DNA of 64,000 nucleotides from Slackia heliotrinireducens DSM 20476 (GTDB taxonomy: Bacteria > Actinomycetota > Coriobacteriia > Coriobacteriales > Eggerthellaceae): the NCBI RefSeq assembly GCF_000023885.1, contig NC_013165.1, positions 1,054,001 through 1,118,000 of the forward strand, read 5' to 3'. Positions 8,050 to 23,605 of this stretch are shown here, piece by piece (position 1 is the first letter of the stretch; each line of letters starts with the position of its first letter). The notes beneath the pieces were generated by a model. It had not been told where the DNA came from. It worked only from the letters and a program-made list of their open reading frames with translations, and did not search any database. The translations under genes and the position numbers were made by a program.

Positions 8050-8703
8050 CTACGCCATGCGGCGAAGCTGCTGCTGGTTGATCTGTTCTTCCAAAGACGA
8101 ATGAACGATGTTGGTGAAATGCTTCATGTCCTCGAGGATGTCCTCGTCATCGGATGTGGAAAGCTTCGTGATGATGTATGTGATGATGGCGCCCGAGTAG
8201 AACTCCGCCAGAAACCGGATGCTGGATTCGGAAAGCCAGCGGTTGCTCAGGATGAAGCGGATGTCGTCTTCCAGTGCGGGCGTGTACAGGTTGATGAGGT
8301 ACGTCCGCAGGCTGTCGGGTTCGTTGGACCTCAAGGCTCTCCTATAGTAGGTCTTGCGCTCCTGAAGGACATCGGCGAACGCACGCAGAAACTCCGACGA
8401 GTCGAGTGAACGCACGCCCGTCTTGAGCCGCACGTAGTAGGGGAGGTCCGGCATGGACTCTTCGGTCATGGGCTCGAAAACCAACTGGGATTCTTCGAAT
8501 CGGTCGCGCAGCATGCGCGCCAGATCGCTGCGGAAGATCCAGCGAATGAGGTGCGTCTTGCTCTCAAAATGATAGTAGAACGTTTTGCGGTTCTTTTGGG
8601 ATGCGGCAACGATGTCCGAAACAGAGATTTTGTCAAAGGGCAGATTTTCGGACAATTCTACAAAAGTGTCCCCAAGAAGCATCATTGTGTCGATGGATCC
8701 CAT
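8050..8703 (-). CDS. TetR/AcrR-like transcriptional regulator
   Basis: A 217-residue protein with an N-terminal TetR-type helix-turn-helix (about residues 8-55: FDKISVSDIVAASQKNRKTF followed by YYHFESKTHLIRW). The C-terminal all-helical domain would bind a ligand and dimerise. The KTFYYHF variant resembles the DhaS-like branch of TetR proteins, some of which act as co-activators, so repression cannot be assumed. The ATG has GGAGGTCG upstream. It is divergent from the acyl-CoA dehydrogenase at 9093 across a 389-bp AT-rich gap, so it is a good candidate regulator of the fix/cai-like cluster. Confidence 0.8.
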   Translation of the reverse strand: MGSIDTMMLLGDTFVELSENLPFDKISVSDIVAASQKNRKTFYYHFESKTHLIRWIFRSDLARMLRDRFEESQLVFEPMTEESMPDLPYYVRLKTGVRSLDSSEFLRAFADVLQERKTYYRRALRSNEPDSLRTYLINLYTPALEDDIRFILSNRWLSESSIRFLAEFYSGAIITYIITKLSTSDDEDILEDMKHFTNIVHSSLEEQINQQQLRRMA

Positions 8704-9092
8704 GCGCCGACCTCCAATCTGTTTCAGCCATTCTTTCCAATACGCTTGATTGAACTCGGATTATCACTGATGTGTCAACCAGTATCATACGCGCTTTTGC
8801 TACGGATATGAAGATTAGCACAACAGATATTCAATTCTGACCCCTAAGCGGATGGCCTAGCAAAACCCCTGATAGACTACTAAAAAGCCCTGTTAAAGCA
8901 GTAAAAAGGCAAGAAACTCCGATACTTTACCATTGATATATATGAAGTGGTTATGAATGGTTGATATGGCCACAAATCGGTACAAAATTGAGAAGTTGAC
9001 CATCCCTAAATGATATGGAGCGACGTAAAGTCTTAGCTGTCATATGGAAGGCGTAGCTTCCGTACCAAAGGACTCAATATAAGGAGGACGTA
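8704..9092. promoter_or_regulatory. Divergent control region of the fix/cai-like cluster
   Basis: A 389-bp gap, clearly more AT-rich than its neighbours, between the TetR-like gene and the first acyl-CoA dehydrogenase. It holds short direct repeats (ACTAAAAAGCC and AGTAAAAAGGC, near 8878-8910), several TTGATA/TTGACC hexamers and an imperfect ACTG...CAGT dyad near 8766-8783. I cannot single out one promoter with correct spacing. A GGAGG site directly before 9093 serves the dehydrogenase. Confidence 0.45.
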
Positions 9093-10250
9093 ATGGATTT
9101 CGCATTGACCGACGAGCAAGAGCTGTTGCTGGAAAGCGTACGTGAATTCTGCGAGCGTTACTTTACCGAAGACGTCATCAAGGAAATGTACGAGAAGGGC
9201 GATATGCCTGACGAAATCGCTCTGGCCTATGCAGAGAACGGCTTCGGCTTGATGGGCATCCCCGAGGAATACGGCGGAATCCCTTGCGACAAGGTCACTC
9301 TGGGCCTCATGATCGAAGAGCTCTACCGTTCCTCCGGCTGCATGCACATCCTGTACCAGAACTCCCTGTCGATGTTCGACATCATGGAGTTCGGCACCGA
9401 AGAGCAGAAGCAGCAGGCTGTCGAACACTACATGGAGACCGGCTGGCCCATCGCTTCTCTGTCCATCTCCGAGCCGGGCGCAGGCTCCGACAACGGCTCC
9501 ATGACCTGCACCGCTGTGAAGCAGGAGGATGGCACCTATCGTCTGAACGGTCAGAAGACCTGGGTTACCATGGGCGCCAAGCTTCCGTACACCATCGTGG
9601 TCGCCAAGGACGAGGACCCCTCTCGCGAGAACCGCAACATGAGCCTTTGGTACATCAACATGGACCGCGAGGGCGTTTCCACCGCTCCGCTGCATAAGAT
9701 TGGCCAGCAGTGCATTCCGTTCTGTGAGGTCTACCTGGACAACGTCGTCGTTACCGAGGAAGACCGCATGGGCGAGCCGGGCAAGGGCTTCATGATGCTG
9801 ATGAAGAACTTCGAGGTCGAGCGTGCCTTCATCGTCGCCGAGCAGGTCGGTCTGGCTCAGGCGGCTCTGGAAGACGCCACCAAGTACGCTAACCAGCGCA
9901 TCGCCTTCGGCAAGCCGATCGCCCGTCAGGAAATCATCATGGAGTACCTGACCGACATGGAGATCGCCGTCCAGAACACCCGTAACATGCTGTACAAGAC
10001 CCTCTGGCAGCTCGACAACGGCATCCCCGTGCAGCTGGAATCCGCCCTGCTCAAGCGCTACGGCTGCTCCGAGTGCTTCAAGGTCGCCGACAAGGCCCTG
10101 GGCATCTACGCCGGCCTCGGCTACACCACCGAAGTCCGCATCGGCCGCATCTGGGCCGACCTGCGCGGCAACATGTTCGGCGGCGGTACGCACGAGATCA
10201 TGGCCTACATCGCCGGCCGTCAGGTCGCCAAGAAGTACGCCGACAAGTAG
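9093..10250 (+). CDS. CaiA-like acyl-CoA dehydrogenase/reductase (paralogue 1)
   Basis: FAD-dependent acyl-CoA dehydrogenase fold, 385 residues, close in length and start (MDFALTDEQELL) to E. coli crotonobetainyl-CoA reductase CaiA (380). It has the flavin-contact motif SISEPGAGSDNGSM (about residue 128), QKTWVTMG, the substrate/FAD segment QRIAFGKPIARQE and the C-terminal FGGGTHEIMAYIAGRQ. In ordinary fatty acyl-CoA dehydrogenases that last motif reads IYEGT with the catalytic Glu; here the Glu position is Gly, as in CaiA. This fits use as a reductase of an activated C=C bond with electrons from the FixAB flavoprotein encoded next, but substrate and direction are inferred. AAGGAGG precedes the ATG. 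Confidence 0.85.
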   Translation: MDFALTDEQELLLESVREFCERYFTEDVIKEMYEKGDMPDEIALAYAENGFGLMGIPEEYGGIPCDKVTLGLMIEELYRSSGCMHILYQNSLSMFDIMEFGTEEQKQQAVEHYMETGWPIASLSISEPGAGSDNGSMTCTAVKQEDGTYRLNGQKTWVTMGAKLPYTIVVAKDEDPSRENRNMSLWYINMDREGVSTAPLHKIGQQCIPFCEVYLDNVVVTEEDRMGEPGKGFMMLMKNFEVERAFIVAEQVGLAQAALEDATKYANQRIAFGKPIARQEIIMEYLTDMEIAVQNTRNMLYKTLWQLDNGIPVQLESALLKRYGCSECFKVADKALGIYAGLGYTTEVRIGRIWADLRGNMFGGGTHEIMAYIAGRQVAKKYADK

Positions 10251-10260
10251 TCAGGCGCCT

Positions 10261-10360
10261 TCCATCCGGCATGCCGCCGACGAAGGCGGCCATGCAATGG
10301 CATGCAACATCCGGCGTCGGCGCTGCATCCGCAGCACACAGCCGACGCCGGTTTCAAGCA
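10261..10360 (+). other. Structured intergenic element between the acyl-CoA dehydrogenase and fixA
   Basis: The 257-bp gap holds two strong inverted repeats. The first is GCATGCCGCC/GGCGGCCATGC (10269-10295, one bulged C). The second is an 11-bp perfect stem CCGGCGTCGGC (10311-10321) with GCCGACGCCGG (10341-10351), whose loop contains a smaller GCTGC/GCAGC hairpin. Only TTT follows, so it is a poor classical terminator. It may trim or attenuate the transcript and set the ratio of dehydrogenase to electron-transfer flavoprotein. The remaining bases to 10507 show nothing else. Confidence 0.6.
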
Positions 10361-10507
10361 AACGTTATCCCGATGGAAACATTTGCCAACAGCGCCAAGC
10401 AAGCACCCGCAAGTCGTGTTCGCATCGTAGCCCAGCCAAGCAAAAGCCAGGTGCTGGGCAGGCGCAGACAGAACAGGTTTCAACGGATCCGAAAGGAAAG
10501 GAACGTA

Positions 10508-11263
10508 ATGAAGATCGCAGTTGCAATCAAGGTCGTTCCGGACGACCAGGACATCCAGGTCGCAGCCGATGGCTCGCTGGATTACTCCAAGGCTAAGAAC
10601 AAGGTCTCCGAATACGACAGGAACGCCATCGAGGCTGCAGCCCAGCTCGCAGCCGCTGCCGGCGACTCCAAGGTTTACGTCGTTACCGTGGGTGGCAAGG
10701 GTATCGATGACTCCAAGACCAAGAAGGACATCCTGGCCCGTGGCGCCGACGAACTGTTCATGATCGCCGACGACGCCGCTGCCGACCTGGACGCCAACGC
10801 AACCGCTGCCGCCCTGGCCGACCTGGTCGCCAAGGTTGGCGACGTGGACGTCATCGTCTGCGGCGACGGTTCCGCCGACAACTACGCCCAGCAGGTCGAC
10901 GTTCAGCTGGCCGCCAAGCTCGGTCTGCCTTCCGTAAACGGTGCGACCAAGATCACCCCGGCCGCTGGTTCGCTCACCGTCGTGCGCGCTCTCGAGGACG
11001 CGGTCGAGACCGTCGAGATCCCGACCCCCTGCGTCGTCGCCGTGGCTCCCGACATCGCCGTGCCCCGCATTGCCGGCATGAAGGACATCCTCGCTGCTGG
11101 CAAGAAGCCGATGGACGTCTCCGGTGCCGCCAGCGCTTACACCAACACCCTGGAAGTCGTCGACTGCAAGGCTCCCGAGCAGGCTGCTCGCGCTTGCGAG
11201 ATCGTCGACGCCGGTGATGAAGCCACTGCCAAGATCGTTGCCGCCATCAAGGCTGCGCTGTAA
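10508..11263 (+). CDS. fixA: FixA, electron transfer flavoprotein beta-type subunit
   Basis: Small subunit of the FixAB electron transfer flavoprotein, which accepts or donates electrons to acyl-CoA dehydrogenases and FixCX. The 251-residue protein starts MKIAVAIKVVPDDQDIQV, has the ETF-beta nucleotide-loop region VIVCGDGSADNYAQQVDVQ (about residue 117) and the family motif RIAGMKDILAAGKKP near the end. E. coli FixA has 256 residues. GAAAGGAAC precedes the ATG; a longer frame to the left lacks a start site. It is 18 bp upstream of fixB. Codons are strongly biased, suggesting high expression. Confidence 0.92.
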   Translation: MKIAVAIKVVPDDQDIQVAADGSLDYSKAKNKVSEYDRNAIEAAAQLAAAAGDSKVYVVTVGGKGIDDSKTKKDILARGADELFMIADDAAADLDANATAAALADLVAKVGDVDVIVCGDGSADNYAQQVDVQLAAKLGLPSVNGATKITPAAGSLTVVRALEDAVETVEIPTPCVVAVAPDIAVPRIAGMKDILAAGKKPMDVSGAASAYTNTLEVVDCKAPEQAARACEIVDAGDEATAKIVAAIKAAL

Positions 11264-11281
11264 AGAAAGGGTAGCAAGACA

Positions 11282-12175
11282 ATGAAGGCATTTGTTATTG
11301 CAGAACATTCTGACGCGGCTGCCCAGCTCGCCGCTGGCGCCCGTACCGTGGCCGACGAAGTCGCCGTTGCCGTGATCAACGCCGAGGTGCCCGCAGGCAT
11401 CGCCGACGCCGCCTACCATGTGGCCGTTCCCGAAGGCGCCATCGCTGACGACGCCTATGGTGCCATCGCCACCGTTCTCGACGCTGACGTCGTCATCGCC
11501 GAGCCCACCCGTCACGTCAAGTCCGTCGTCGGTCGTCTGGCCGCCGCCAAGGGCGCTGCCGTGATCACCGACTGCCTGTCCATCGCCGACGGCGCTGCTG
11601 TCAGCATGTACTTCGGCGGTGTTGGCCAGATCACCCGCAAGGCCAAGGGCACTGCATTCTACACCGTGGCTCCCTCCGTGTTCGGCGATGCTGCCGCATC
11701 CGGTTCCAACGGTGCTGCCGAGGAACTGGCATGGGTCGCTCCGGCCAACGCTGCCAAGCTGGTCGCCTCCGAGCCGGTCGTCAAGTCCGGCGTCGATTTG
11801 ACCAAGGCCGATGTCGTCGTGGCCTGCGGCCGCGGCTTCGTGGGCAAGACCGGTCTGAACACCGAGCTCATCGGCGTCGCCGAGCAGATCGCTGCCAAGA
11901 CCAACGGCGGCGTGGGTTGCTCCCGTCCGCTGGCTGAGGGCGTCGAAGGCTCTGACTTCGATTCCTACATCGGCGTTTCCGGTCTGCAGCTGACCCCGAA
12001 GGTCTACATCTGCGCCGGCATCTCCGGTCAGATGCAGCATATGGTCGGTTGCAACCGTTCCGGCGTGATCATCGCCATCAACAAGGACAAGAACGCTCCT
12101 ATCTTCAAGCAGTGCGACCTGGGCGTCGTGGGCTCCGTCGAGGATGTCCTGCCTGCTCTGGCAGCTGCGCTGTAA
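11282..12175 (+). CDS. fixB: FixB, electron transfer flavoprotein alpha-type subunit
   Basis: Large ETF subunit that holds the electron-transferring FAD. In 297 residues it has the variable N-terminal domain and the conserved C-terminal FAD domain (about residues 165-297): VACGRGFVGK, GCSRPLAEG, then YIGVSGLQLTPKVYICAGIS with QHMVGC and AINKDKNAPIFKQCDLGVVG. E. coli FixB has 313 residues. AAAGGGTAGCAAGAC precedes the ATG. It follows fixA by 18 bp and ends 9 bp before a 14-bp-stem terminator, so fixAB forms its own transcript end rather than running into fixC. Confidence 0.92.
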   Translation: MKAFVIAEHSDAAAQLAAGARTVADEVAVAVINAEVPAGIADAAYHVAVPEGAIADDAYGAIATVLDADVVIAEPTRHVKSVVGRLAAAKGAAVITDCLSIADGAAVSMYFGGVGQITRKAKGTAFYTVAPSVFGDAAASGSNGAAEELAWVAPANAAKLVASEPVVKSGVDLTKADVVVACGRGFVGKTGLNTELIGVAEQIAAKTNGGVGCSRPLAEGVEGSDFDSYIGVSGLQLTPKVYICAGISGQMQHMVGCNRSGVIIAINKDKNAPIFKQCDLGVVGSVEDVLPALAAAL

Positions 12176-12183
12176 GCACTTCT

Positions 12184-12232
12184 CCACTGAAGCGGCGAGG
12201 GCTGTCTCCGCGCCGCTTCAGTGGCTCTTTTT
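12184..12232 (+). terminator. Strong terminator after fixB
   Basis: Perfect 14-bp stem CCACTGAAGCGGCG/CGCCGCTTCAGTGG, 13-nt loop, then CTCTTTTT. It separates fixAB from fixCX. Confidence 0.93.
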
Positions 12233-12337
12233 GTCCATCAACAAGCTTTACTGTTGGGCGAGATTGAGCACCTTCGCGTCTGTCGTACCTTTTTCGTGTG
12301 ATGCAACGAGCTGGTTCGCATGGCATGATGGTTCGTG

Positions 12338-12359
12338 CATAGGATACGGTTTTCCTATG
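12338..12359. promoter_or_regulatory. Inverted repeat in the fixC upstream region
   Basis: CATAGGA (12338-12344) and TCCTATG (12353-12359) form a 7-bp perfect dyad with an 8-bp spacer, about 210 bp before fixC. The rest of the 340-bp gap (12233-12571) shows only an imperfect GGAAACCC/GGGTTCCC dyad near 12484. A regulator-binding role is a guess based on related ATAGG elements elsewhere in the cluster. Confidence 0.4.
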
Positions 12360-12571
12360 GGCAGACGCAAAGGACTCATGCGGTTTTTCAAATGGGGGAT
12401 ACGACGTCTGGATTGGTGCCGTCCTTCGGTTTCAAAAAGCCGTTTCGGCCGTAGGCTATGTGGTAAGGGGGTTGGGTTCGCTCTGGAAACCCTGCGGGTT
12501 CCCAAGGCAAATCGCAACCGCATACGTTGGCGTGACAACGCCTGATTACGACAAAGAAAGGATGTGGCACC

Positions 12572-13900
12572 ATGGCTGATTTTGAGCCTGATTTCGATGC
12601 GATCGTCGTCGGCGCAGGCCTAGCCGGCTCCGTGGCCGCATACGAACTCGCGAAGGCGGGCAAATCCGTCCTCGTCGTAGAACGCGGCAACTTTGCAGGC
12701 GCCAAAAACATGACCGGCGGGCGCATCTACGCCCACTCGCTGCACAGCGTGTTCCCGGACATGGACTTCTCGGAGCTTCCATTCGAGCGCAAGGTTTCGC
12801 ATGAGCGCATCTCGCTGATGGCTCCGGATTCCAACTTCACCATCGACTTCACCTCCGAGGACCTGACCAAGGATGGTCAGGAGTCCTACACCATCCTGCG
12901 CGCCGTGTTCGACCCGTGGTTGGCCGAGCAGGCTGAGAACGAAGGTGCCGAAATCATCTGCGGCATTCCCGTGGAAGACCTCCTCAAGGACGAGGACGGC
13001 TCCGTCACCGGCACTGCTGGCAAAATCTACGGCGTGCGTGCGGGCGAAGACGAAATGACCGCATCCGTGGTCATCCTCGCAGATGGCGTCAACTCCCTGC
13101 TGACCGAGAAGGCCGTCGGCTACAAGCGCCCCGAAGCCAAGTTCATGGCTGTCGGCGTCAAAGAGGTCTACGAGCTTTCCGAGCAGCGCATCAACGACCT
13201 GTTCCAGGTTGCTGACGGCGAAGGTGCTGCATGGCTGTTTGCTGGCGATGTCACCCATGGCCTGTTCGGCGGCGGCATCATCTACACCAACAAGGATTCC
13301 ATCTCCATCGGCATCGTCGCAGGCATCGAAGCCATCGCGAACGGCGCCACGCGTCCTGTTTACCAGATGCTCGAGGATCTGAAGGCCCATCCGGCCGTGG
13401 CTCCTGTCCTGAAGGACGCCAAGATGGTAGAGCACTCCGGCCACATGGTTCCCGAAGGCGGCATCAACATGATGCCCGAGCTGACCGGCGACGGCGTCAT
13501 CGTCGCTGGCGACGCGGCCATGATGTGTGTCAACCTGGGCTACACCGTGCGCGGCATGGACTACGCCGTGGCCGCCGGCCAGTACGCCGGCCAGGCCGCT
13601 GTGGAGGCCCTTGATGCTGGCGACACGTCCAAGAGCGGCCTTGCCGGTTATGTGAACCGCCTGAACAACTCCTTCGTCCTGAAGGACCTCAACCAGTTCA
13701 AGCTGGTCCCCGGATTCATGGAGGGCTTCGACCGCATGTTCTGCGGCTATCCCGAGATGATTCGCGACATGATGAACAAGATGTTCGTCATTGATGGAAC
13801 GCCTGTTCAGCCCATGAAGAAGACCATGATGCCTATCGTGAAGGAAGTGGGCTTCATGAACCTCTTCAAGGATGTGAGAGGAGCAATGAAGGCCCTATGA
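12572..13900 (+). CDS. fixC: FixC, ETF:quinone oxidoreductase-like flavoprotein
   Basis: FAD protein that couples FixAB to FixX and the membrane quinone pool or, in bifurcating FixABCX complexes, splits NADH electrons between ferredoxin/flavodoxin and quinone. The 442-residue protein has an N-terminal dinucleotide fold (DAIVVGAGLAGSVAAYELA), the VVERG and KNMTGGRIY segment, a second FAD motif ASVVILADGVNS (about residue 165) and the late TGDGVIVAGDAAMMCV. A C-terminal hydrophobic/Met-rich stretch may touch the membrane. E. coli FixC has 428 residues. GAAAGGATG precedes the ATG. Its stop overlaps the fixX start (ATGA), indicating translational coupling. Confidence 0.92.
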   Translation: MADFEPDFDAIVVGAGLAGSVAAYELAKAGKSVLVVERGNFAGAKNMTGGRIYAHSLHSVFPDMDFSELPFERKVSHERISLMAPDSNFTIDFTSEDLTKDGQESYTILRAVFDPWLAEQAENEGAEIICGIPVEDLLKDEDGSVTGTAGKIYGVRAGEDEMTASVVILADGVNSLLTEKAVGYKRPEAKFMAVGVKEVYELSEQRINDLFQVADGEGAAWLFAGDVTHGLFGGGIIYTNKDSISIGIVAGIEAIANGATRPVYQMLEDLKAHPAVAPVLKDAKMVEHSGHMVPEGGINMMPELTGDGVIVAGDAAMMCVNLGYTVRGMDYAVAAGQYAGQAAVEALDAGDTSKSGLAGYVNRLNNSFVLKDLNQFKLVPGFMEGFDRMFCGYPEMIRDMMNKMFVIDGTPVQPMKKTMMPIVKEVGFMNLFKDVRGAMKAL

Positions 13901-14193
13901 GCAACATCGAGATCGAGGTGAACGTTGACGAGTACCTGTCGCTGAACAAGTACGAGGTCGACGAGGAGAACGCACACATCGAAGTGGACCTTGAGGGTTC
14001 CGATGCGGAATTCGACAAGCTGATTCGCGTGTGCCCTGCGGCGCTGTACAAGCGCGATGAGGACGGCAACAAGTCCTTCGACTATGCCGGCTGCCTGGAG
14101 TGCGGCACCTGCCGTATCGCCTGCGGCGACACCATCATCAAGAAATGGGTCTACCCCGGCCCCACCATGGGTGTCGAGTATCGCTTCGGATAA
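13897..14193 (+). CDS. fixX: FixX, ferredoxin-like protein
   Basis: A 98-residue iron-sulfur protein that works with FixC. Cysteines lie at 46 (RVCPAALY) and at 66, 69, 72 and 76 (CLECGTCRIAC), the FixX pattern for a 4Fe-4S cluster, and the fold is of ferredoxin-like size (E. coli FixX has 95 residues). It starts inside the fixC stop codon (ATGA overlap) and is followed by a terminator. The first 40 residues are acidic and not clearly part of the cluster-binding domain. Confidence 0.9.
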   Translation: MSNIEIEVNVDEYLSLNKYEVDEENAHIEVDLEGSDAEFDKLIRVCPAALYKRDEDGNKSFDYAGCLECGTCRIACGDTIIKKWVYPGPTMGVEYRFG

Positions 14194-14230
14194 TGGGATA
14201 AACGGCGCATAGTATTTGATGCTCAACTTG

Positions 14231-14268
14231 CGAGGATGCTCTACAATGAAGCGGGGCATCCTCGTTTT
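14231..14268 (+). terminator. Terminator after fixX
   Basis: Stem CGAGGATGC/GCATCCTCG with a 16-nt loop and TTTT. Confidence 0.75.
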
Positions 14269-14344
14269 GCGTATATGGGGCGAAAGATTGGTCCCGTATG
14301 CGGGTTCGAGGATAAGAGAGAAAAAATGACGGAAAGGCCATGCC

Positions 14345-15511
14345 ATGTACGATGGTCTAAGCAGAGATGAGCAAAGGCTGCTCAATCACGTTCGGGAGTA
14401 CGGAGAGAAGTACTTCACCCCGGCGTCCATTTCGAAATGGCGCAAAGATCAGGGATTGCCGGACGAGGTGGTCAAAGCTTTTGTGGATTTGGACTTCAAC
14501 GGGTTCGGGGTCATCCATCGAAGGAACCACAGGACCTACGACCTGTTCGCACAAGTGCTGGTCATCGAGGAGCTGAGCCGTATTTCCGGAGCCTGCCTGC
14601 CGTTCCAGAACGATCTTCTGCAGCTGCAGATCCTGGAGGCGTTCGCCAGCTCGGCACAGACATCGCCGTTCCGCACCGAATACCAGGACACAGGACGTCT
14701 GTCCTATGCTCTGGCCATCTCTGAGCCTGAGGCCGGCTCTGACACCCGCAGCATGCGCACGCACGTGACGCGTGAAGGCGATACGCTGGTCATGAACGGA
14801 ACGAAGATGTTCGTGAACAACGGGGAATACGCTCCTGCGCTGCTCGTGTCGGCTTATGACAAGACCGGAGACGACGGCGAGCCGGAATTCTCGTTTTGGA
14901 TGGTCCCTCGTTCCGCCGCGGGCATCTATGCATACCCGGAACAGAAAATCGGCCAATCCATGCTTCCGTTCGCCACCGTCAGGTTCGACAACGTCGAGGT
15001 TAAGGAATCATGGCGGCTTAAGGGCTCTTCCAAGGGCTTCTCCCAGCTGTACAGCCTTCTGGAGTACGGACGCGTGTTCACGTGCGCAGCGGCCCTCGGA
15101 GAGGCTCAGGCGGCCATGGAGGACGCCGTTGCGTGGGCCCGCGGACGCGAGGCCTTCGGACAGCGCATAGCGGATCTTCAGCAGGTCCAGATGAAGCTGA
15201 CTGAGATGGAGGTCAAGCTGACCAACATGCGCAATCTGGTTTACGGGGCCGCGCGGGAATACGACAGGGGAGAGCATAAGCGCCTGAGCGTCGCCCTGAT
15301 GAAATACTACGTGCCCAAGGCGGCGACCGAGGTGGCAAGCGATGCCATGCAGATTCTGGGCGGCCGCGGATACATTCAGGAGAACAGGGTTTCTTCCATC
15401 TGGCAGGACTGCCGCGGCTACCAGTTTGCCGACGGTACCGACGAGGTCATGGTCGTCATCGCTGCACCGCTCATTCTGGAGCAATACAAGGCCTCGAAAA
15501 ACAATCGATAA
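14345..15511 (+). CDS. CaiA-like acyl-CoA dehydrogenase/reductase (paralogue 2)
   Basis: A 388-residue acyl-CoA dehydrogenase-fold protein, paralogous to the one at 9093 but clearly diverged. It has LAISEPEAGSDTRSM in the flavin-contact site (with EPEAG in place of the EPGAG of paralogue 1), GTKMFVNNGEYAPALLV, REAFGQRIADLQQVQ and MQILGGRGYIQE. At the catalytic-base position (YEGT in ordinary enzymes) it reads ADGT, so Glu is replaced by Asp. GGAAAGG lies upstream of the ATG; an overlapping ATG at 14340 is in a frame that stops after six codons. It follows fixX by about 150 bp beyond a terminator, so it probably has its own promoter and may act on a different CoA ester from paralogue 1. Confidence 0.82.
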   Translation: MYDGLSRDEQRLLNHVREYGEKYFTPASISKWRKDQGLPDEVVKAFVDLDFNGFGVIHRRNHRTYDLFAQVLVIEELSRISGACLPFQNDLLQLQILEAFASSAQTSPFRTEYQDTGRLSYALAISEPEAGSDTRSMRTHVTREGDTLVMNGTKMFVNNGEYAPALLVSAYDKTGDDGEPEFSFWMVPRSAAGIYAYPEQKIGQSMLPFATVRFDNVEVKESWRLKGSSKGFSQLYSLLEYGRVFTCAAALGEAQAAMEDAVAWARGREAFGQRIADLQQVQMKLTEMEVKLTNMRNLVYGAAREYDRGEHKRLSVALMKYYVPKAATEVASDAMQILGGRGYIQENRVSSIWQDCRGYQFADGTDEVMVVIAAPLILEQYKASKNNR

Positions 15512-15534
15512 CGGCGTTTCGCACCGCAATACGA

Positions 15535-16871: not shown

Positions 16872-17164
16872 TAAAACCTCCTTCAGTAGGTAATCCGTAG
16901 AGCCCCGTTCAGCAGAACTCTTTCATGTCTGTCATTATGGGGGCCTGACCTCGGAATATCCAATTAGAGTCACCATGGCAATATCGTGTAACCTATCAGA
17001 ACGGCTCATAATAAACGGAAATTATGGATAGCATGTATACCTATCGTGGCAACTTGTGAATAACACCACACTATTGCAAGATTGACCCTGTACCGACGTT
17101 CGGATTTTCAGTTTTATAAGCATTGACGATATTTCAGCTGAAAAGTGTCTCGGAGGTAACATCA
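16872..17164. promoter_or_regulatory. Divergent promoter region between acyl-CoA dehydrogenase 3 and the LysR gene
   Basis: 293 bp of AT-rich DNA. It contains two copies of ACCTATC (16991-16997 and 17039-17045), the second forming a dyad GATAG (17027-17031), nine bases, CTATC (17041-17045). The divergent layout is typical for a LysR regulator and its target. No -35/-10 pair with ideal spacing stands out. Confidence 0.5.
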
Positions 17165-18115
17165 ATGAGCATGAACCTTTCGCAGCTTTATTATTTTCGG
17201 AAACTTGCGGAACTTCAGCACTACACGAAGGCGGCGAAAGAGCTCTACATCACCCAGCCTGCTCTGTCCGATGCCATCAAGTCTTTGGAGAAGGAGCTGG
17301 GCGTTCCTCTGTTCCAGCGCAAAGGCCGCAACGTGTGCCTTACCAAATATGGAAAAGAGTTCGCGGTCTACGTAAACGATGCCTTGCGCGAGCTGGATAA
17401 GGGCATCGCCGTCATGAAGGAGTACACGGGCAGCCTGTCCGGCCGCATCAACATCGGCGGCATCTACACCATCACCGGCGACTATCTGCCGGCTTTGCTG
17501 CGTTCCTACCATGCCGAATACGGCGACGCCGTGAAGTTCGTGGTTTCCCAGGGCGTCACGTTAGAGCTTATCGAGGACTTGAAGAACGACAAATACGACG
17601 TGGTGTTCTCGGCGTTTAAGGACAACGAGCCTACGCTGCGATTCTTCCCGGTTGTGGCCCATCAGCTGGTCGCCTGTGTGAAAGCGGACCACCCCTTGGC
17701 CGAGCGCAAGTCCATTCGAATGGATGACCTGCGCAAATGCGGGTTCGAAATCTACACCTACCGCACCGACATCCCCATCGGAGCCGAGGTTGCGGCCGTG
17801 ACTGACGAATACGGCATCAAGACGCATCAGCGCTTCGACGACGAGATCACCCTGTGCGGCATGGTGTCCAACGAGCGAGACGATTCCGTGGGCCTGCTCA
17901 CGTACACCATCGGCATGAAGCCCTTCACAGACCTGGTCATCATTCCCATCGACGACCGCGACGTGCCGGTGGACTTCCACCGCATGTACATGGTGTACAA
18001 GAAGGACGAGTTCAAGAACCGCGCCTTGGAAAGCTTCATCGACCTTGCGAAGGAGTTCGTGCCTCCTGAGGGTACGCTTCCCACCTGCAAAGTGGTTCGC
18101 GAGAACGCCGAGTAA
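17165..18115 (+). CDS. LysR-family transcriptional regulator
   Basis: A 316-residue LysR regulator. Residues 1-60 are the winged HTH (NLSQLYYFRKLAELQHYTKA, KELYITQPALSDAIKSLEKE); residues about 90-300 are the periplasmic-binding-protein-like inducer domain (GRINIGGIYTITGDYLPALL and onward). The start ATG 17165 has GGAGG 8 bp upstream; a frame beginning 14 codons earlier has no site. Divergence from acyl-CoA dehydrogenase 3, with a dyad between them, and position in the middle of the cluster suggest that it senses the pathway substrate or CoA ester. That role is inferred. Confidence 0.9.
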   Translation: MSMNLSQLYYFRKLAELQHYTKAAKELYITQPALSDAIKSLEKELGVPLFQRKGRNVCLTKYGKEFAVYVNDALRELDKGIAVMKEYTGSLSGRINIGGIYTITGDYLPALLRSYHAEYGDAVKFVVSQGVTLELIEDLKNDKYDVVFSAFKDNEPTLRFFPVVAHQLVACVKADHPLAERKSIRMDDLRKCGFEIYTYRTDIPIGAEVAAVTDEYGIKTHQRFDDEITLCGMVSNERDDSVGLLTYTIGMKPFTDLVIIPIDDRDVPVDFHRMYMVYKKDEFKNRALESFIDLAKEFVPPEGTLPTCKVVRENAE

Positions 18116-18132
18116 AACCCTTACGGTATACG

Positions 18133-18160
18133 AAAGCCGCCCGATCGGGCGGCTTTTTTC
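18133..18160 (+). terminator. Terminator after the LysR gene
   Basis: Stem AAAGCCGCCC/GGGCGGCTTT, loop GATC, T6 run. Confidence 0.92.
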
Positions 18161-18194
18161 GTCGGATGAGGAATGTTTCGTGCGGCTTCGAGCG

Positions 18195-18779
18195 TTATTT
18201 CTCCAGCTTCAGCAGGCTGATGCGGGTCATGGGCTTGCGGACGATGCCCAGACCCTTGATGTGGTAGTAGATGACGAAGCCGCTCTTGCACCGGAAGGCG
18301 CATTCCTCGCAGGGCTGCTTGTTGCAGTAGACGTAGGCGTCCTCCCGGGCCAGTGCGAAATACAGGGGAGGGAACTTCTTCGGCAGGACGTATTTCATCT
18401 GCATGCCAGTGAAGGTTTTCAGGGCGACCCAGTCCACCTGGTACAGGTCCTTGTTCTTGATGGTCCAATCCACAACGATGCAGTTGTTGTTGAAGCCGCC
18501 GTCGATGCGGTAGTCGAGCTCGACGCCTTCGGGCAGGTCGTCTTCGGTCAGGATCTGCTGCCGCTCGGGCAGGCCGCCGTCCTCTTCGCCCAGATACATG
18601 TAAGGCATCTCGGCGACGACGGTGGAGCCGGATCCCGAGTAGAAGATGTCGTTGGCTCCGCCGAACCCGACGGTCACATCGCCGTTGGCATCTTGGTAGA
18701 ACGGCAGGTCGTTGTCGCTGATGCGCGGCTTGAATCCGTTGCGGGTGCGGGTGATGCTGAACTCGCGTTTCTCGGCCAC
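18195..18779 (-). CDS. Unknown 194-residue protein with a four-Cys motif, last gene of the ligase unit
   Basis: I do not recognise this family. The GTG start (18779-18777) is preceded by AAAGGGGG and lies 53 bp downstream of the CoA-ligase gene. The protein has no signal peptide or membrane segment. Its first half is polar (DLPFYQDANGDVTVGFGG), the middle looks like a beta-rich domain (MPYMYLGEEDGG, VVDWTIKNKDLYQVDWVAL), and near residue 150 it has YCNKQPCEECAFRC, a Cys set with 4, 2 and 3 residue spacings that could bind zinc or an iron-sulfur cluster. Its constant place behind a CoA ligase in this cluster suggests an accessory role in handling the acyl-CoA or electron transfer, but this is only a guess from context. 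Confidence 0.7.
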   Translation of the reverse strand: MAEKREFSITRTRNGFKPRISDNDLPFYQDANGDVTVGFGGANDIFYSGSGSTVVAEMPYMYLGEEDGGLPERQQILTEDDLPEGVELDYRIDGGFNNNCIVVDWTIKNKDLYQVDWVALKTFTGMQMKYVLPKKFPPLYFALAREDAYVYCNKQPCEECAFRCKSGFVIYYHIKGLGIVRKPMTRISLLKLEK

Positions 18780-18832
18780 GATGTACCCCCTTTAAGCATG
18801 CGGTCGGCGCTGATGGCCGACCGTCGTTCATT

Positions 18833-20482
18833 CTATTCTTCGGGAAGCCCCATGCGGCGCTTCAGAATGCGGAGCAATTCGTTGCGACGCACTTTGCCCG
18901 TGGGCGTGCGGGGAATCTCGTCGATCAGTTCCAGACGCTCGGGCCACAGGCGCTTGGAGACTCCTTTTTCGCGCAGGTGTTCCAAAAGGTCCGCCAGCTC
19001 GGGCGTGTGTTCCAGATGGGCCGCCGGCACGGCGAACAGGCAGATGCGTTCGCCCATGCGGTCGTCGGGCGCGCCGATGGTGGCTTGGTCGACGATGTCC
19101 GCCCAGTCCATGACGTTGTCGTCCACTTCAAGAGCGGAGATGTTCTCGCCGCCGCGAATGATAATCTCTTTCTTGCGGCCGTTGATGCGGATGCGGCCTT
19201 CTTCATCCATGTAGCACAGGTCGCCGCTGTAGAACCAGCCGTCATCGTCGAGCGCCTTGTTCGTTTCCTCCGGGTTGTTGAGGTAGCCCACGAACATGTG
19301 GGGACCGCGGCTGATCTCTTCGCCCTGCACGCCGCAGGGGACGGGCTTGCGGTTCTCATCTACAACGCCGACTTCGATTCCCTCCAAAGCCACACCCGAC
19401 CAGGCTCCGTTCCATTCGGTGCACTTCTCAGGCGGCACGTAGGCGTGCGGGCAGCTTTCCGTGGAGCCGTAGCACTCGCAAAGCAGGATGTTGTGCCGTT
19501 TGGCGCGCTCGATGAGGCGGCTGGGCAGAGGAGCGCCGCCGCTCAGGAATAGTTTGAGCGTGGGCACATGGCTGTGCGCGGCCTCGAGCTCGGTCAGGAT
19601 ATCCATGATGAAGGGCGTGGCGCCCATGGACCAGGTGACCTTCTCTTTGTTGATGATGCGGATGGCGGTGGATGCCTTGAACCGCTCTTCCAGAACGGTG
19701 GTCTGTCCCAGCAGCATAGGCGAGATCAAACCGTGGAAGAATCCGGTAGCGTGGTTGAGCGGGGACGGCATAAACATGATGTCGTCGCTGGTCAGGTGCA
19801 ACCCGCCAGTGAATGCGCGCTCCGAGAACAGGATGTTGTTATGGGTGAGGAGCGCTTGTTTGGGCTTGCCGGTCGTGCCGCTTGTGGACAGGATGCAAGC
19901 CACGCTGTCAGAGGACGCATTCGGGAATTCTGACAGCGGCTCATAGGTTTCGATGACTTTGGCATAGGTCATCAGGTCGGAGTTTGCCGGCTTCCCGTTC
20001 TTGTCGAAAAGCAGCACTCGGGAAGCGTCCAGGGTGTCGACGCGCTCGATGCACTCCAGGGCCATGGGCTCGTGGTCTATCGAACGTTCGTAGGTGGGGC
20101 AGATGAACGCGCGCGATCCGACCAGGTTCATGACGTAGACCAGATCCTCCACGCTGAAGTTGCGCGGCAGCGGATGCATGACGGCGCCGGCTTTGGTGAT
20201 GCCCAGGTAGAAGATGCAGAATTCCGCCCAGGTAGGGAACTGGAAGGTGACGATGTCGCCGACTTCGACGCCCGCATCGACGAGCCATGCCGCGACGCGT
20301 GAGGAAAGTTCATCGCATTCCGCATAGGTGTATGAAGCGCCGAGGTCGTCCTTGACGTAGGTCTTATCGGCGAATGCCTTGCACTGGCGAGCCCATACGT
20401 CTGCGATGGTGTCTTCGGTCCAGTAGCCTTTTTCGTAGTACTGTTTCTTGGCTTCTTCGTTGATCTTCAAATCAGTGATCAT
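18833..20482 (-). CDS. CaiC-like acyl-CoA ligase (AMP-forming)
   Basis: A 549-residue ANL-superfamily adenylate-forming enzyme that would activate a carboxylic acid to its CoA thioester with ATP. It has the P-loop-like [20 protein letters not shown] (about residue 190), the adenine motif [31 protein letters not shown] and the C-terminal catalytic Lys region [14 protein letters not shown]. CaiC of E. coli is 517 residues with a similar layout, but crotonobetaine or carnitine specificity cannot be read from these motifs. AGAGGGAAG lies upstream of the ATG. A terminator-like hairpin lies between it and the CoA-transferase gene upstream. Confidence 0.85.
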
Positions 20483-20520
20483 GGCGCGTGCTTCCCTCTT
20501 GGCTCGGTGGTGCTGGGGTT

Positions 20521-20558
20521 AAAGAAAGGGCAGGCTGAGCCACCTGCCCTTTCTTTTT
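20521..20558. terminator. Hairpin between the CoA-transferase and CoA-ligase genes
   Basis: Perfect 14-bp stem AAAGAAAGGGCAGG/CCTGCCCTTTCTTT with an 8-nt loop. Both ends are A/T-rich, so it can work on either strand; on the minus strand it follows the transferase gene by about 33 bp and could lower ligase expression. Confidence 0.75.
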
Positions 20559-20590
20559 GCTCATTTGGGATCGGGTGTGCCCGTTGGAAC

Positions 20591-21823
20591 TTAGATGAGC
20601 TCGTCCAGGCTGGTAGCGCCCTTGATGGAACCGTCGGCCAGAGCGGCAGCGATCTGCTCGTCGGTGTAGCCGAGCTCCTTCATGACGGCCTCGGTGTCTT
20701 CGCCGAGCTTGCCGGTGGGCTCGAAGGGAGCCATGTCGTTGATCTCGAACTGAACCGGGATCGTGGGGCACCAACGGCCGCCCTTGGGATAGGGGACCTG
20801 CTTGATGTACTCGTTCTCGATGGCGTTCTGGTCTTCGTAGATGTCCGTCGGGGTCTGAGCAGGCTCGCAGGGCATGTCGTTCTCTTTGAACATCTTGAGC
20901 AGCTCGTCGCGGGTGAACTGAGCGAAGCCCTCGTCCAGGATGCGGACGACCTGAGGAGCCAGGCCCTTGCCGTTGACGGTGAAGATGTCGGCCATATCGG
21001 TGTCTTCCAACAGGTCTTCACGATGGATGAGCTTCAGGACGCGCGGCCAGTCGCGGTTGTACTCGGGGAGGCACAGGACGACCCACTTGCCGTCGCCGGA
21101 GCGGAAGACGTTGTTCAGCGGGTTGTTGACCTCGAGGCGGCTCTTGGGGTAGGGGTTGCCGTACTGGGCGGAAACCATGCCCGTGGACAGGGCGTAGATG
21201 CCGGCGTGCTGCAGAGCGCAGGTGACGTAGTCGCCTTCGCCGGTGGTCTCGCGGCCGATGACGGCAGCCAGGATGCCTGCGGCCAGGAACATGGAGGCCT
21301 GGAAGTCACCGTAGCCGTTGGTGGGGATCATAGGGAAGGAGTCCTTGTCGACGGTGGTGCCGAAGACGCCGCCGCGGCCCATGTAGCAGGTGACGTCGAA
21401 GCCGGCAGCATCCTTCTCGGCGCCGACCTTGCCGTAGCCCAGGCCGTGGCCCATGATCAGGCGAGGATACTTGGCATGCAGGCTTTCCCAGTCGAGGCCC
21501 ATCTTGCGCAGGGACTTGGTGCGGTTGTTGGTGATGAAGATGTCAGCGTCAGCGAGCAGCTTGTTGAACGCCTCAAGGCCGGTTTCGGACTTCAGGTTCA
21601 AGCTGATGCAGCGCTTGTGCATGTTTGCCATGTCGAAGGCGAGGTTTTCGTCGTCGGCCATCGGCATGCCGTAAACGGGAGCCTGGTTGACGCGGGTAGG
21701 GTCGCCCTTGGCGGCTTCGACCTTGATGACCTCGGCGCCCATTTCACCGAGCACGCGGCCGGTCGTGGGGGTGGCGAGGAAGGTGGTAAGATCGACGACC
21801 TTAAGACCCTTGAGTGGTTGCAT
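20591..21823 (-). CDS. CaiB-like class III (family III) CoA-transferase
   Basis: A 410-residue CaiB/BaiF-type CoA-transferase, which moves CoA from a product thioester to a new substrate acid and thus avoids ATP cost. Motifs: PLKGLKVVDLTTFLATPTTG and RVLGEMGAEVIKVE at the N-terminus, and the expected catalytic Asp in AAGFDVTCYMGRGG (about residue 165). The C-terminal part has NPLNNVFRSGDGKWVVLCLP and a TDEQIAAALADGSI end. CaiB of E. coli has 405 residues. GGAGG lies 7 bp before the ATG. It has its own long AT-rich upstream region with a palindrome, and a hairpin after it. Confidence 0.88.
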   Translation of the reverse strand: MQPLKGLKVVDLTTFLATPTTGRVLGEMGAEVIKVEAAKGDPTRVNQAPVYGMPMADDENLAFDMANMHKRCISLNLKSETGLEAFNKLLADADIFITNNRTKSLRKMGLDWESLHAKYPRLIMGHGLGYGKVGAEKDAAGFDVTCYMGRGGVFGTTVDKDSFPMIPTNGYGDFQASMFLAAGILAAVIGRETTGEGDYVTCALQHAGIYALSTGMVSAQYGNPYPKSRLEVNNPLNNVFRSGDGKWVVLCLPEYNRDWPRVLKLIHREDLLEDTDMADIFTVNGKGLAPQVVRILDEGFAQFTRDELLKMFKENDMPCEPAQTPTDIYEDQNAIENEYIKQVPYPKGGRWCPTIPVQFEINDMAPFEPTGKLGEDTEAVMKELGYTDEQIAAALADGSIKGATSLDELI

Positions 21824-22195
21824 AGTCTGACCTCCTTGGTTTCCGCTTCAGCGGAACCTCGTAATGGGTGGATATAGAAAAACCACTTACGACCTGCAAG
21901 CGGTCATTCTCCGGATGGAAACGAAACGGTGTGCCTTCGGGTAATCTCGGAATAGGTTTCAGACGGATCGACGGTGGGTCTTCCCAGGGCCGACCACCTT
22001 TCTTGTCTTTATTATGGTGGACGTGTGAAGAGGTGTCTAATCGTTGCTTTGAGGTATCTTCAGGCCTATTCATAGGCTCGATTTATGGTTGGCCAAACAA
22101 TGCGATTCTGTGCTGTTCATCTGCGGTTATATGCATTGCGACAACCAGGGGGAGAAGGGTGTGGGGCGAAGGTTCCAACCGGGGCTGCGGGGCCG
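21824..22195. promoter_or_regulatory. Upstream region of the CoA-transferase gene with a palindrome
   Basis: A gap of about 370 bp between the transporter's terminator and the transferase start. It contains GCCTAT-TC-ATAGGC (22064-22077), a 6-bp perfect dyad, about 240 bp upstream of the transferase ATG. No coding frame here is credible. The ATAGG half-site recurs in other control regions of the cluster. Confidence 0.45.
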
Positions 22196-22233
22196 GAAAA
22201 AAGAAGAACCCGGCCCTCTTTGGGAGCCGGGTT
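22196..22233 (-). terminator. Terminator of the MFS transporter gene
   Basis: On the minus strand: stem AACCCGGC/GCCGGGTT with a 10-nt loop and a CTTCTTTTTT tail, about 50 bp after the stop. Confidence 0.85.
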
Positions 22234-22282
22234 CCAATGCGATCGCTTTTTGCAAGCGCTGTGGGCTATCGAATGTTAAGGC

Positions 22283-23605
22283 TTAGTCCTGAGGAGCCAT
22301 TGCGCTCTTGCCGAACAGACCCTTCCAAGCAGCCACCAGGTAGGCGCTCATGGCGCAGGAGATCAGGGCTGCGACGAGCAGCAGGATCATCATGACCCAG
22401 ACGGCCTGGGTTTCACCCACGGCAGAGGTCATGCTGCCGACGATGAAGGGCAGGAAGACGGAGGCGAAGCCCATGAAGGTGTAGTACATACCGACGTTAC
22501 GACCGCGAGGACCGGGGCAAACCGTCTGACGCAGGGTGACGCCAGTCTGGAGCATGCCGCCAGCAGCGCCGAAGCCGAGCAGGGCGATGGCGATGTAGAC
22601 GACGCCGGCACCGAGGCCGAGAGGCAGGGCCAGGATGACCATGGCCAGAGCGACGGTGGCGATGATGGAGTCGATCAGGATGACCTTGATCGGGCTCCAG
22701 CGGAGCTTGCCCATCATGAATGCCCAGAAGAGGACGGCGATGATGGAACCGGCGGTGTAGATGGAGGTCATGCCTGCAGCGGCAACGTCGGACAGGCCGA
22801 GGTTGTTGATGCCGAAGGCCTTGGAGTACTGCTGTGCGCCGTACATGATGAACATGATGATGAAGCCGAAGAACAGGGTGACGAAGTTCTCGAGGCCGTT
22901 GGGCTTACGCAGCATGGCGTCCCTAGCAGCCTGGATTTCAGCTTCGGCAGCGTTCTTGGCGCCGGCGGTATCCTTCTCGACACCCTGCTTGCGCTCGTCG
23001 TCATACACGAACGGGGTGATGATGGCCAGCACGGTGGCGATGACGGACATGACGATGGGGATCCAGATGTTGATGTGCCAGTTGGCGCCGGAGTTCATAG
23101 CGGCGAACAGCGGGTACACGATACCGGACACGGAGATGACGGCCTTGATGCCGATGGTGGTGGAGCCTGCATACTTCGGCGAAGCCTCGGCGATTGCCGG
23201 GTACAGAGCGCCATCCCAGAAGCCAGACGTAGCAACGCCGGACAGGAAGCCTGCGACGCAAGCGACGGTAGCGCTGTTGGTGACCAGGAAGATCACGAAG
23301 CAGATGATGTACAGGACGCCACCGAGGACAGCGGGGATCTTACGGCCGATGCGGTCGGAAATCTCGCCGCCGATCCAGACGCTGACGAACTTGCCGACGC
23401 CGGTCCAGGTGATGGCCAAAGACACGGCAGCGGCGCCAGCGGCGAAGGCTGCGGAGTTGGGGTCAGACATGTCAAATCCCCACTGAGTGGCGAAATTGAC
23501 CTTGTTCTGGCTAAGAATGATTGCCTGGACGCCATGGGTCAGGTAGCACATGTACGTCGTGGCGATAGCGAGAAGGTACTTCTTCGCTTGTTGAGCTGCA
23601 CTCAC
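22283..23605 (-). CDS. MFS transporter, probable carboxylate importer of the cluster
   Basis: A 440-residue major facilitator protein with about 12 membrane segments split by a charged central loop (about residues 205-235, DDERKQGVEKDTAGAKNAAE). The loop between segments 2 and 3 has the MFS signature GGEISDRIGRKIPAVLGG. The start is GTG (23605-23603) with AGGAGGAG upstream. Clustering with CoA ligase, CoA-transferase and acyl-CoA dehydrogenases suggests that it imports the acid, or exchanges substrate for product. In the E. coli cai system this job is done by a BCCT antiporter (CaiT), so a different, perhaps non-betaine, substrate is likely. That is an inference. Confidence 0.85.
   Translation of the reverse strand: MSAAQQAKKYLLAIATTYMCYLTHGVQAIILSQNKVNFATQWGFDMSDPNSAAFAAGAAAVSLAITWTGVGKFVSVWIGGEISDRIGRKIPAVLGGVLYIICFVIFLVTNSATVACVAGFLSGVATSGFWDGALYPAIAEASPKYAGSTTIGIKAVISVSGIVYPLFAAMNSGANWHINIWIPIVMSVIATVLAIITPFVYDDERKQGVEKDTAGAKNAAEAEIQAARDAMLRKPNGLENFVTLFFGFIIMFIMYGAQQYSKAFGINNLGLSDVAAAGMTSIYTAGSIIAVLFWAFMMGKLRWSPIKVILIDSIIATVALAMVILALPLGLGAGVVYIAIALLGFGAAGGMLQTGVTLRQTVCPGPRGRNVGMYYTFMGFASVFLPFIVGSMTSAVGETQAVWVMMILLLVAALISCAMSAYLVAAWKGLFGKSAMAPQD

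Follow-up and report, generated by a model that had tools for sequence, protein, structure and literature searches.

A conserved, apparently unnamed acyl-CoA redox module in Slackia heliotrinireducens and its likeness to the E. coli ydi/fadK genes

Gene content and layout of the cluster

We examined a cluster of acyl-CoA redox genes in the gut-type bacterium Slackia heliotrinireducens DSM 20476 (Eggerthellaceae, Coriobacteriia), located within a stretch of 64,000 nucleotides (positions 1,054,001 to 1,118,000 of the 3,165,038-base contig NC_013165.1; hereafter the window). The cluster encodes three acyl-CoA dehydrogenases (ACAD1, ACAD2 and ACAD3), an electron transfer flavoprotein (ETF; FixA and FixB) with FixC and FixX partners, an acyl-CoA ligase, a family III CoA-transferase, a transporter of the major facilitator superfamily (MFS) and a small cysteine protein that we call CysP. 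It represents a conserved and apparently unnamed acyl-CoA redox module; the combination of genes is new, but the kind is known from the ydi/fadK, cai and car systems. As a class, and leaving the substrate unspecified, it is very likely an anaerobic acyl-CoA reduction system similar to ydi/fadK.

Genes in the window up to approximately 29 kb were called using Pfam and NCBIfam profile models with their cut-offs, and blastp against E. coli proteins. The gene list of a preliminary description of this DNA, made from the sequence alone, proved correct in outline, and the families were confirmed by Pfam and NCBIfam. The genes and associated features are listed here in window coordinates.

8050-8703, minus strand: regulator of the TetR family, diverging from ACAD1 (above cut-off for Pfam TetR_C_8 and TetR_N)
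9093-10250, plus strand: ACAD1, YdiO/CaiA-class acyl-CoA dehydrogenase (PRK12341 473.1 bits, cut-off 537; CaiA 298.8, cut-off 540)
10508-11263 (start taken as 10508), plus strand: FixA, ETF beta (48% identical to E. coli FixA, 40% to YdiQ)
11282-12175, plus strand: FixB, ETF alpha (Pfam ETF_alpha; 36% to FixB, 34% to YdiR)
12212-12225, plus strand: terminator-like hairpin in the fixB/fixC gap (consensus scan only)
12572-13900, plus strand: FixC/YdiS-like FAD quinone oxidoreductase (PRK10015 490.4 bits, cut-off 466; FixC model 460.8, cut-off 610)
13897-14193, plus strand: FixX/YdiT-like ferredoxin (FixX model 109.8 bits, cut-off 166; 53% to YdiT, 51% to FixX)
14345-15511, plus strand: ACAD2, acyl-CoA dehydrogenase with Asp at the medium-chain acyl-CoA dehydrogenase (MCAD) base position (identical to PDB 4rm7)
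15675-16871, minus strand: ACAD3, Bcd-type acyl-CoA dehydrogenase with Glu373 (Pfam/NCBIfam, alignment)
17123-18115, plus strand: LysR-family regulator (Pfam)
18195-18779, minus strand: CysP, 194 amino acids, four invariant Cys (alignment, composition, predicted fold)
18833-20482, minus strand: FadK-like AMP-forming acyl-CoA ligase (PRK06087 836 bits, cut-off 736)
20591-21823, minus strand: family III CoA-transferase (Pfam CoA_transf_3 276 bits; CaiB model 103.2, cut-off 413)
22205-22235, minus strand: terminator-like hairpin 3' of the MFS gene (consensus scan only)
22283-23605, minus strand: MFS transporter (Pfam MFS_1; 25.5% to YdiN)

The block is bordered by ndk (7534-7941) on one side and by rimP-nusA-infB (from 24144) on the other. 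The cysteine protein of unknown type in the preliminary description does correspond to a real gene, but the 236-amino-acid frame at this place (18121-18831, minus strand) is apparently wrong, with shadow-frame composition and no Pfam match, and the true frame is that of CysP. A 133-amino-acid open reading frame at 12144-12545 was discarded on the same two grounds. Searches against Rfam and against a plasmid collection gave no matches.

The strand switches several times within the cluster, and this, together with the terminator-like hairpins after fixB and after the MFS gene, indicates from the sequence that the cluster is not a single operon. By strand and gaps, at least seven transcription units are likely: TetR (minus), ACAD1-fixAB (plus), fixCX-ACAD2 (plus), ACAD3 (minus), LysR (plus), CoA-transferase-ligase-CysP (minus) and MFS (minus). 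The breaks after fixB and after MFS were placed because of the hairpins there, which are consensus matches only and weak evidence, since the terminator scan returned 15 sites compared with 12.7 +/- 3.2 in shuffled sequences. A promoter scan gave no clear signal (8 sites vs 5.9 +/- 2.2 in shuffles).

Relation to the ydi, cai and car systems

On sequence comparison, the nearest described locus is E. coli ydiO-ydiQRST-fadK. The window ligase exceeded the cut-off of the FadK model PRK06087 and was 39% identical to E. coli FadK, and its second-best model, cyclohexanecarboxylate-CoA ligase, scored 357.6 bits against a cut-off of 792.3. FixC also exceeded the cut-off of PRK10015, which we take to be the YdiS model, with the adjacent FixX-like protein under the cut-off of its own model; blastp does not separate the two E. 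coli relatives of window FixC, which was 49.5% identical to YdiS and 49.6% to FixC. ACAD1 was nearer by score to YdiO than to CaiA (44% vs 35% identity, 473.1 vs 298.8 bits, both under cut-off), and ACAD2 and ACAD3 were more distant than ACAD1 from both. The window proteins fell below the cut-offs of the YdiO model (presumably PRK12341), the YdiQ model and the YdiR model (473.1/537, 233.6/338 and 144.2/528 bits, respectively), and a tree of acyl-CoA dehydrogenases joined YdiO with CaiA (support 0.996). For these reasons we propose, by analogy, that the window cluster functions like ydi, and do not claim orthologous membership.

The window cluster and the E. coli locus share an acyl-CoA dehydrogenase, ETF beta and alpha subunits, FixC- and FixX-type proteins, a FadK-type ligase and an MFS transporter. 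In E. coli (locus L034; comparison loci are given here by such L numbers), shikimate genes adjoin ydi, as ydiB (quinate/shikimate dehydrogenase), aroD and the MFS gene ydiN lie beside ydiF-ydiO-ydiP-ydiQRST-fadK. In contrast, ydiB and aroD are missing from the window block, although they are found beside the module in L082, L083, L115, L127 and L128. The CoA-transferase family also differs, as ydiF was unmatched to the window family III enzyme, the window has two additional acyl-CoA dehydrogenases, gene order and regulators are different, and CysP is not among the E. coli genes annotated at the ydi locus.

The preliminary description had viewed the cluster as a rearranged carnitine (cai) system. 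This did not hold, as ACAD1, the CoA-transferase and the ligase fell below the NCBIfam cut-offs for CaiA (298.8 bits, cut-off 540), CaiB (103.2, 413) and CaiC (182.7, 651), with blastp identities of 35%, 24% and 26%, whereas a caiA/caiB/caiC set in a Slackia relative (L036:10840-16646) exceeded all three (646.8/540, 570.5/413 and 677.1/651). This set is located approximately 4 kb past fixX, alongside orthologues of the window TetR-ACAD1-FixABCX genes, so that both kinds of genes are present in one genome. Sets similar to caiA/B/C were also detected in L039, L064, L065, L067 and L075 (58-63%, 41-44% and 42-47% identical to the E. coli proteins by blastp). In the tree of acyl-CoA dehydrogenases, which held 81 of 170 sequences chosen by a per-bin rule with loci L056-L075 left out, the relatives' CaiA grouped with E. 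coli CaiA (support 1.0) and outside the ACAD1, ACAD2 and ACAD3 clades.

The individual labels changed correspondingly. The ligase described as CaiC-like is FadK-like instead (836/736 vs 182.7/651 bits), the CoA-transferase described as CaiB-like has only the low identity and score given above, and of the two dehydrogenases labelled CaiA-like, at 9093 and 14345, ACAD1 is closer to YdiO and ACAD2 is more distant. The reported absence of a hydratase was upheld, as CaiD, and likewise CaiT, CaiE and CaiF of E. coli, were unmatched by the 13 window proteins compared (blastp, E 1e-3). The superfamily of the transporter, offered as a sign of a different system, loses that meaning because the cai set of L036 also neighbours an MFS carrier and not a CaiT match. 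A CaiT label beside that set proved to be a shadow open reading frame, the gene on the opposite strand being the MFS carrier. The broader proposal, a redox cluster in which three dehydrogenase paralogues, a ligase and a CoA-transferase are coupled to ETF/FixCX and the activated acid is not carnitine, was supported. E. coli caiTABCDE with fixABCX (L035) does resemble the window cluster in FixABCX-coupled acyl-CoA reduction, in its ligase, in a CoA-transferase of family III and in the CaiA-type base position of ACAD1.

The caffeyl-CoA reductase system of Acetobacterium (CarABCDE) is similar in that a ligase, a CoA-transferase, an acyl-CoA dehydrogenase and an ETF reduce an activated enoate, and CarC (in PDB 6fah, which we take to be CarCDE of this system) is one of the closest relatives of ACAD1 and ACAD2 with a solved structure. 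It differs in its ETF, which is of the bifurcating type, and to our knowledge it is without FixCX, ACAD3 or CysP.

Conserved parts, CysP and electron supply

The catalytic base positions known for the family were located in the three dehydrogenases by aligning them with Bcd and CarC; the tallies include some genes twice because of overlapping loci. ACAD1, YdiO and CaiA have Glu at the isovaleryl-CoA dehydrogenase base position (ACAD1 Glu243) and Gly at the MCAD position, and this pattern was present in 27 of 27 ACAD1-like sequences (at least 40% identity). The Glu of ACAD3 is at the MCAD position and is shared by 68 of 69 relatives (identity 60% or more), the remaining one having a gap. The window ACAD2 has Asp at this position, where Glu was found in 32 of 33 relatives of at least 40% identity and Asp in one. 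The full-length sequence of ACAD2 is identical to PDB 4rm7, presumably derived from S. heliotrinireducens, whose listed name states no substrate. ACAD3 is the best-conserved enzyme of the substrate side. Two ACAD3 paralogues occur in L077 (5626-6813 and 12025-13221, approximately 74% and 87% identical to that of the window), and also in L076, L078, L079 and L081. Elsewhere in the S. heliotrinireducens genome (L141:7668-10540, approximately 322.7-325.5 kb) another ETF pair lies next to an acyl-CoA dehydrogenase gene (25% identical to ACAD1) and adjoins a LuxR36-like frame.

TetR-ACAD1-FixABCX occurred together in all 12 relatives with an ACAD1 orthologue of at least 80% identity, with the exceptions that FixC and FixX were matched in part in L042 and that ACAD1 was in two frames in L050 (15754-16906, an assembly error or decay). 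ACAD2, MFS, LysR, CoA-transferase, ACAD3, CysP and ligase were within the same 20 kb in four of these relatives (L041, L044, L046 and L050), and most genes of this substrate block were present in two more (L042 with L071, and L045), with the MFS orthologue unmatched in both. The preliminary description had considered that genes unlinked and separately conserved in relatives would speak against one system. On this point the relatives were divided: the two blocks were linked within approximately 20-25 kb in these six, and in the other six, all of one genus, the CoA-transferase/ligase/CysP/ACAD3 block was apart from ACAD1-FixABCX (two on the same contig approximately 27-35 kb apart, and four on different draft contigs, which may lie at any distance). 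As the substrate block lies elsewhere in half of the relatives, the cluster consists of two conserved parts able to separate.

A scan of genome contigs with the CysP alignment, using two peptide patterns that miss distant members, identified 57 loci ranging from Eggerthellaceae to Clostridium, Acetobacterium, Halanaerobium and Agrilactobacillus. Eight weak matches (E 3e-5 to 9.5e-4), perhaps ordinary desulfoferrodoxins, were not taken for CysP. The loci included Slackia piriformis, S. isoflavoniconvertens, S. equolifaciens and S. exigua, as well as Rubneribacter, Senegalimassilia, Gordonibacter, Curtanaerobium, Hugonella, Adlercreutzia, Eggerthella sinensis, Enteroscipio and Paraeggerthella; outside the class were Clostridium ljungdahlii, four Acetobacterium, Pelotomaculum, Sporomusa, Halanaerobium and Bacillus sp., and among lactobacilli two Agrilactobacillus and Loigolactobacillus. 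An ACAD3 homologue was near CysP in 44 of the 57 loci by our own thresholds (ACAD3 at least 55% identity and 250 bits, CysP by profile), one of them (L131) having only the CysP end. These 44 loci contained the CoA-transferase in 33 cases, the ligase in 34, ETF alpha in 22 and FixC in 9. The Firmicutes ACAD3 proteins were 62-68% identical to that of the window, save in one unclassified genome (L109, 74%), and in Pelotomaculum (L110) and Bacillus (L121) ACAD3 and CysP were present with FixC, FixX and FadK at one locus. ACAD3 was absent from 13 of the 57 loci, and CysP is therefore not exclusive to the module. Such CysP relatives were found in Adlercreutzia and other Coriobacteriia (L090, L091, L092, L094, L095, L097, L098 and L099), often beside large unidentified frames, and represent another use of the same protein.

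Four Cys residues of CysP (C152, C157, C160 and C164) were invariant in 47 of 47 aligned sequences, and no alignment column had His in 20 or more of the 47 rows. The AlphaFold2 model (mean pLDDT 80.7) was ranked closest to superoxide reductase/desulfoferrodoxin by Foldseek and VIA-align (1y07, E 6e-5), with Z 9.4 and a root-mean-square deviation of 3.5 over 116 residues for 1y07 and Z 8.8 and 3.8 over 118 for 1dfx, in a list where unrelated beta-sandwiches scored Z 8.1-8.2. A profile search gave a weak match to the superoxide reductase family (E 5e-5); its N-terminal metal domain was matched by 12 of 47 members at E <=1 (best 1.7e-4) and its main domain by one (9e-11). The superoxide reductase centre is a mononuclear iron held by four His and one Cys. 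C152 aligned with the Cys of the superoxide reductase Cys-Asn pair, which we take to be an iron ligand. CysP may have the fold of desulfoferrodoxin/superoxide reductase, to which it has a weak profile match, but differs in having four invariant Cys and no conserved His, and because the His ligands are absent a superoxide reductase function appears unlikely. Our guess is that CysP is a Cys4 metal or Fe-S redox protein. It accompanies the core irrespective of the type of ETF and so probably acts in the acyl-CoA step and not on the donor side.

The ETF types differed among loci. The motif of the window FixA is GDGSADNYAQQV, and GDGSAD was present in the window FixA and in 21 relatives, compared with GDGSSD in E. 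coli FixA and GEGSGD in YdiQ; two Eggerthellaceae ETFs (L062 and L066) had another motif. AIDGDT, as in A. fermentans EtfB, was present in 11 loci (nine of clostridia or acetogens, L125 and Halanaerobium), with TTDGDT in LctB. The Bacillus ETF copy had AIDTDA and three lactobacillus copies had GREAxDDNQ; the gene directly after CysP in Agrilactobacillus composti encodes a FAD enzyme that resembles GlcD but scores under the GlcD cut-off. As these motifs differ among loci that share the core, the substrate core is constant and the ETF type varies by lineage. The bifurcating-type EtfB motif AIDGDT was not found in the window FixA by motif check, and the window donor would most simply be the quinone pool via FixCX. 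Azotobacter FixABCX is reported to bifurcate from NADH (PMC5861303), so bifurcation by the window FixABCX may also occur.

Shikimate and quinate linkage and the proposed function

Shikimate dehydrogenase was present in nine of the 57 CysP loci (L082, L083, L086, L115, L120, L127, L128, L129 and L130) compared with approximately 0.6 expected, and in seven of the 44 loci with ACAD3 (approximately 0.45 expected), enrichments that are a guide, as the loci are not independent. The expectation of 0.6 applies to 1.03 Mb of sequence and was scaled from 14 of these genomes (25 matches over 44.3 Mb), which were partly picked for carrying shikimate dehydrogenase, making it high rather than low. Type I dehydroquinase was present in five of the 57 loci, all five with ACAD3. 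NCBIfam cut-offs were exceeded in L115 for both shikimate dehydrogenase and dehydroquinase, in L127 for shikimate dehydrogenase and in L058 for dehydroquinase; the shikimate dehydrogenase of L058 was under its cut-off (317.7 vs 432). Shikimate dehydrogenase and type I dehydroquinase each occur twice in both Agrilactobacillus genomes, with one pair in the module and one elsewhere. The module of S. equolifaciens and of a further Slackia (L082) includes shikimate dehydrogenase with type I and type II dehydroquinases, and in both a second, divergent shikimate dehydrogenase is near chorismate synthase. Among 61 genomes, type I dehydroquinase occurred in seven and a strong CysP match (E <1e-20) in 13, with five shared (hypergeometric 0.0035, kinship uncorrected). 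A TIM-barrel gene of L058 and L083 was considered as 3-dehydroshikimate dehydratase and rejected, its nearest NCBIfam model being hydroxypyruvate isomerase, below cut-off (151.3/353.5). The genome of S. heliotrinireducens has two chorismate synthase matches (G000:C1:1159106-1160149 and 908340-909362), as do most Slackia genomes searched, and the second copies are divergent.

Together, the likeness to ydi and this linkage suggest, as a plausible but tentative reading, that the cluster is an anaerobic ydi/fadK-like reduction system in which, most likely, shikimate or a cyclohexene acid derived from quinate acts as electron sink. The MFS transporter, the probable carrier for the acid, would take up the alpha,beta-unsaturated carboxylic acid, and the FadK-like ligase would prime it as a CoA thioester at the expense of ATP. 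ACAD3, with or without ACAD1 and ACAD2, would reduce the double bond, and the family III CoA-transferase would hand the CoA of the reduced product on to another molecule of the acid. In this scheme the substrate part would comprise MFS, ligase, CoA-transferase, ACAD3 and probably ACAD2 and CysP, and the electron part FixCX, FixAB and ACAD1, with FixAB delivering electrons that FixCX supplies, most likely from menaquinol. We infer the reductive direction from an anaerobic way of life and from the setting in lactobacilli. As a 2-enoate, shikimate is already alpha,beta-unsaturated and would need no extra step before activation and reduction; quinate would enter as shikimate via YdiB and AroD. Lactobacilli are reported in old physiology papers to reduce quinate and shikimate. 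A literature search that covered few subscription journals and preprints gave no gene assignment for anaerobic quinate or shikimate reduction among the matches listed.

Several observations weigh against a shikimate or quinate substrate. No shikimate dehydrogenase was found within the stretch covered in 48 of the 57 loci, nearly all of the acetogen loci included, and the weakest of the nine found, in L129 and L130, were 37% and 30% identical to YdiB, with L130 lacking ACAD3. In S. equolifaciens and L082, no dehydroquinase was found outside the module. The sole type I dehydroquinase/shikimate dehydrogenase pair of S. heliotrinireducens lies side by side approximately 290 kb away (L140:9698-11448, approximately 766.7-768.4 kb), and being unlinked and the only copy is probably biosynthetic. 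Five of the seven genomes with type I dehydroquinase, S. heliotrinireducens included, had no type II enzyme, so the co-occurrence with CysP may partly reflect biosynthesis. The name of the FadK model refers to medium-chain fatty acids.

This last point bears on a role in anaerobic medium-chain fatty-acid metabolism, with FadK-like activation and ETF-linked dehydrogenation or enoyl-CoA reduction as proposed for ydiO/ydiQRST/fadK. The window ligase does pass the FadK cut-off, but the assigned genes of the block include no hydratase, hydroxyacyl-CoA dehydrogenase or thiolase, and it is shikimate/quinate genes, not those of beta-oxidation, that recur beside the core in several lineages; we consider this role unlikely. 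Equally unlikely, in our view, is that the system reduces, or in syntrophs oxidizes, some other cyclic or aryl enoate, such as cyclohexenecarboxylate or a cinnamate. Cyclohexanecarboxylate-CoA ligase is the second-best ligase model in the window, in C. ljungdahlii and in Pelotomaculum, and the caffeyl-CoA reductase CarC ranks high among the structurally solved relatives of both ACAD1 and ACAD2, yet that ligase model scores far under its cut-off and the neighbourhood carries no sign of a cinnamate or benzoate pathway save a UbiD-type decarboxylase in Sporomusa (L114).

A different explanation is that two independent units are neighbours, ACAD1-FixABCX serving as a general electron unit and CoA-transferase/ligase/CysP/ACAD3 being separate. 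This agrees with the separation of the blocks in six of 12 relatives, with the two different regulators, and with the finding of ACAD1-FixABCX near cai genes as well. The linkage in the other six relatives, and the combination of ACAD3, CysP, FixC, FixX and FadK in L110 and L121, argue against it, and we regard it as quite improbable. A divergent carnitine/gamma-butyrobetaine (cai) system would account for the shared enzyme classes and the CaiA-type base position of ACAD1; it is very improbable and largely refuted by the cut-offs that the window fails and the separate set in L036 passes, and by the tree that splits the two.

The shikimate/quinate reading may extend beyond the window. It is possible, if somewhat doubtful, that a widespread module for shikimate/quinate reduction (respiration) consists of a FadK-type ligase, a family III CoA-transferase, ACAD3-family enzymes, a host-dependent ETF donor and the Cys4 protein, with E. 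coli ydi as a relative. The donors would be menaquinol via FixCX, a bifurcating-type ETF in acetogens, and perhaps a D-2-hydroxyacid via the GlcD-like enzyme in lactobacilli. On this view, the related E. coli genes ydiO-ydiQRST-fadK would also serve shikimate/quinate and not fatty acids. If the shikimate/quinate reading is right for the window, the module would provide markers in gut Eggerthellaceae, lactobacilli and acetogens, would point to a different role of ydi in E. coli, and would show a single substrate module paired with differing electron-supply modules. Quinate and shikimate are frequent in plant food. One study names quinic, shikimic and chlorogenic acid as dietary sources leading to benzoate, the hippurate precursor (PMC8515120).

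Reductases of approximately 670 amino acids and of the Fe-S flavoenzyme type, which may provide an additional reduction step, were also observed near the module in some Firmicutes (L115:16030-18066, L127:10695-12701 and L120:1185-3185). That of L115 is nearest to BaiCD, below cut-off.

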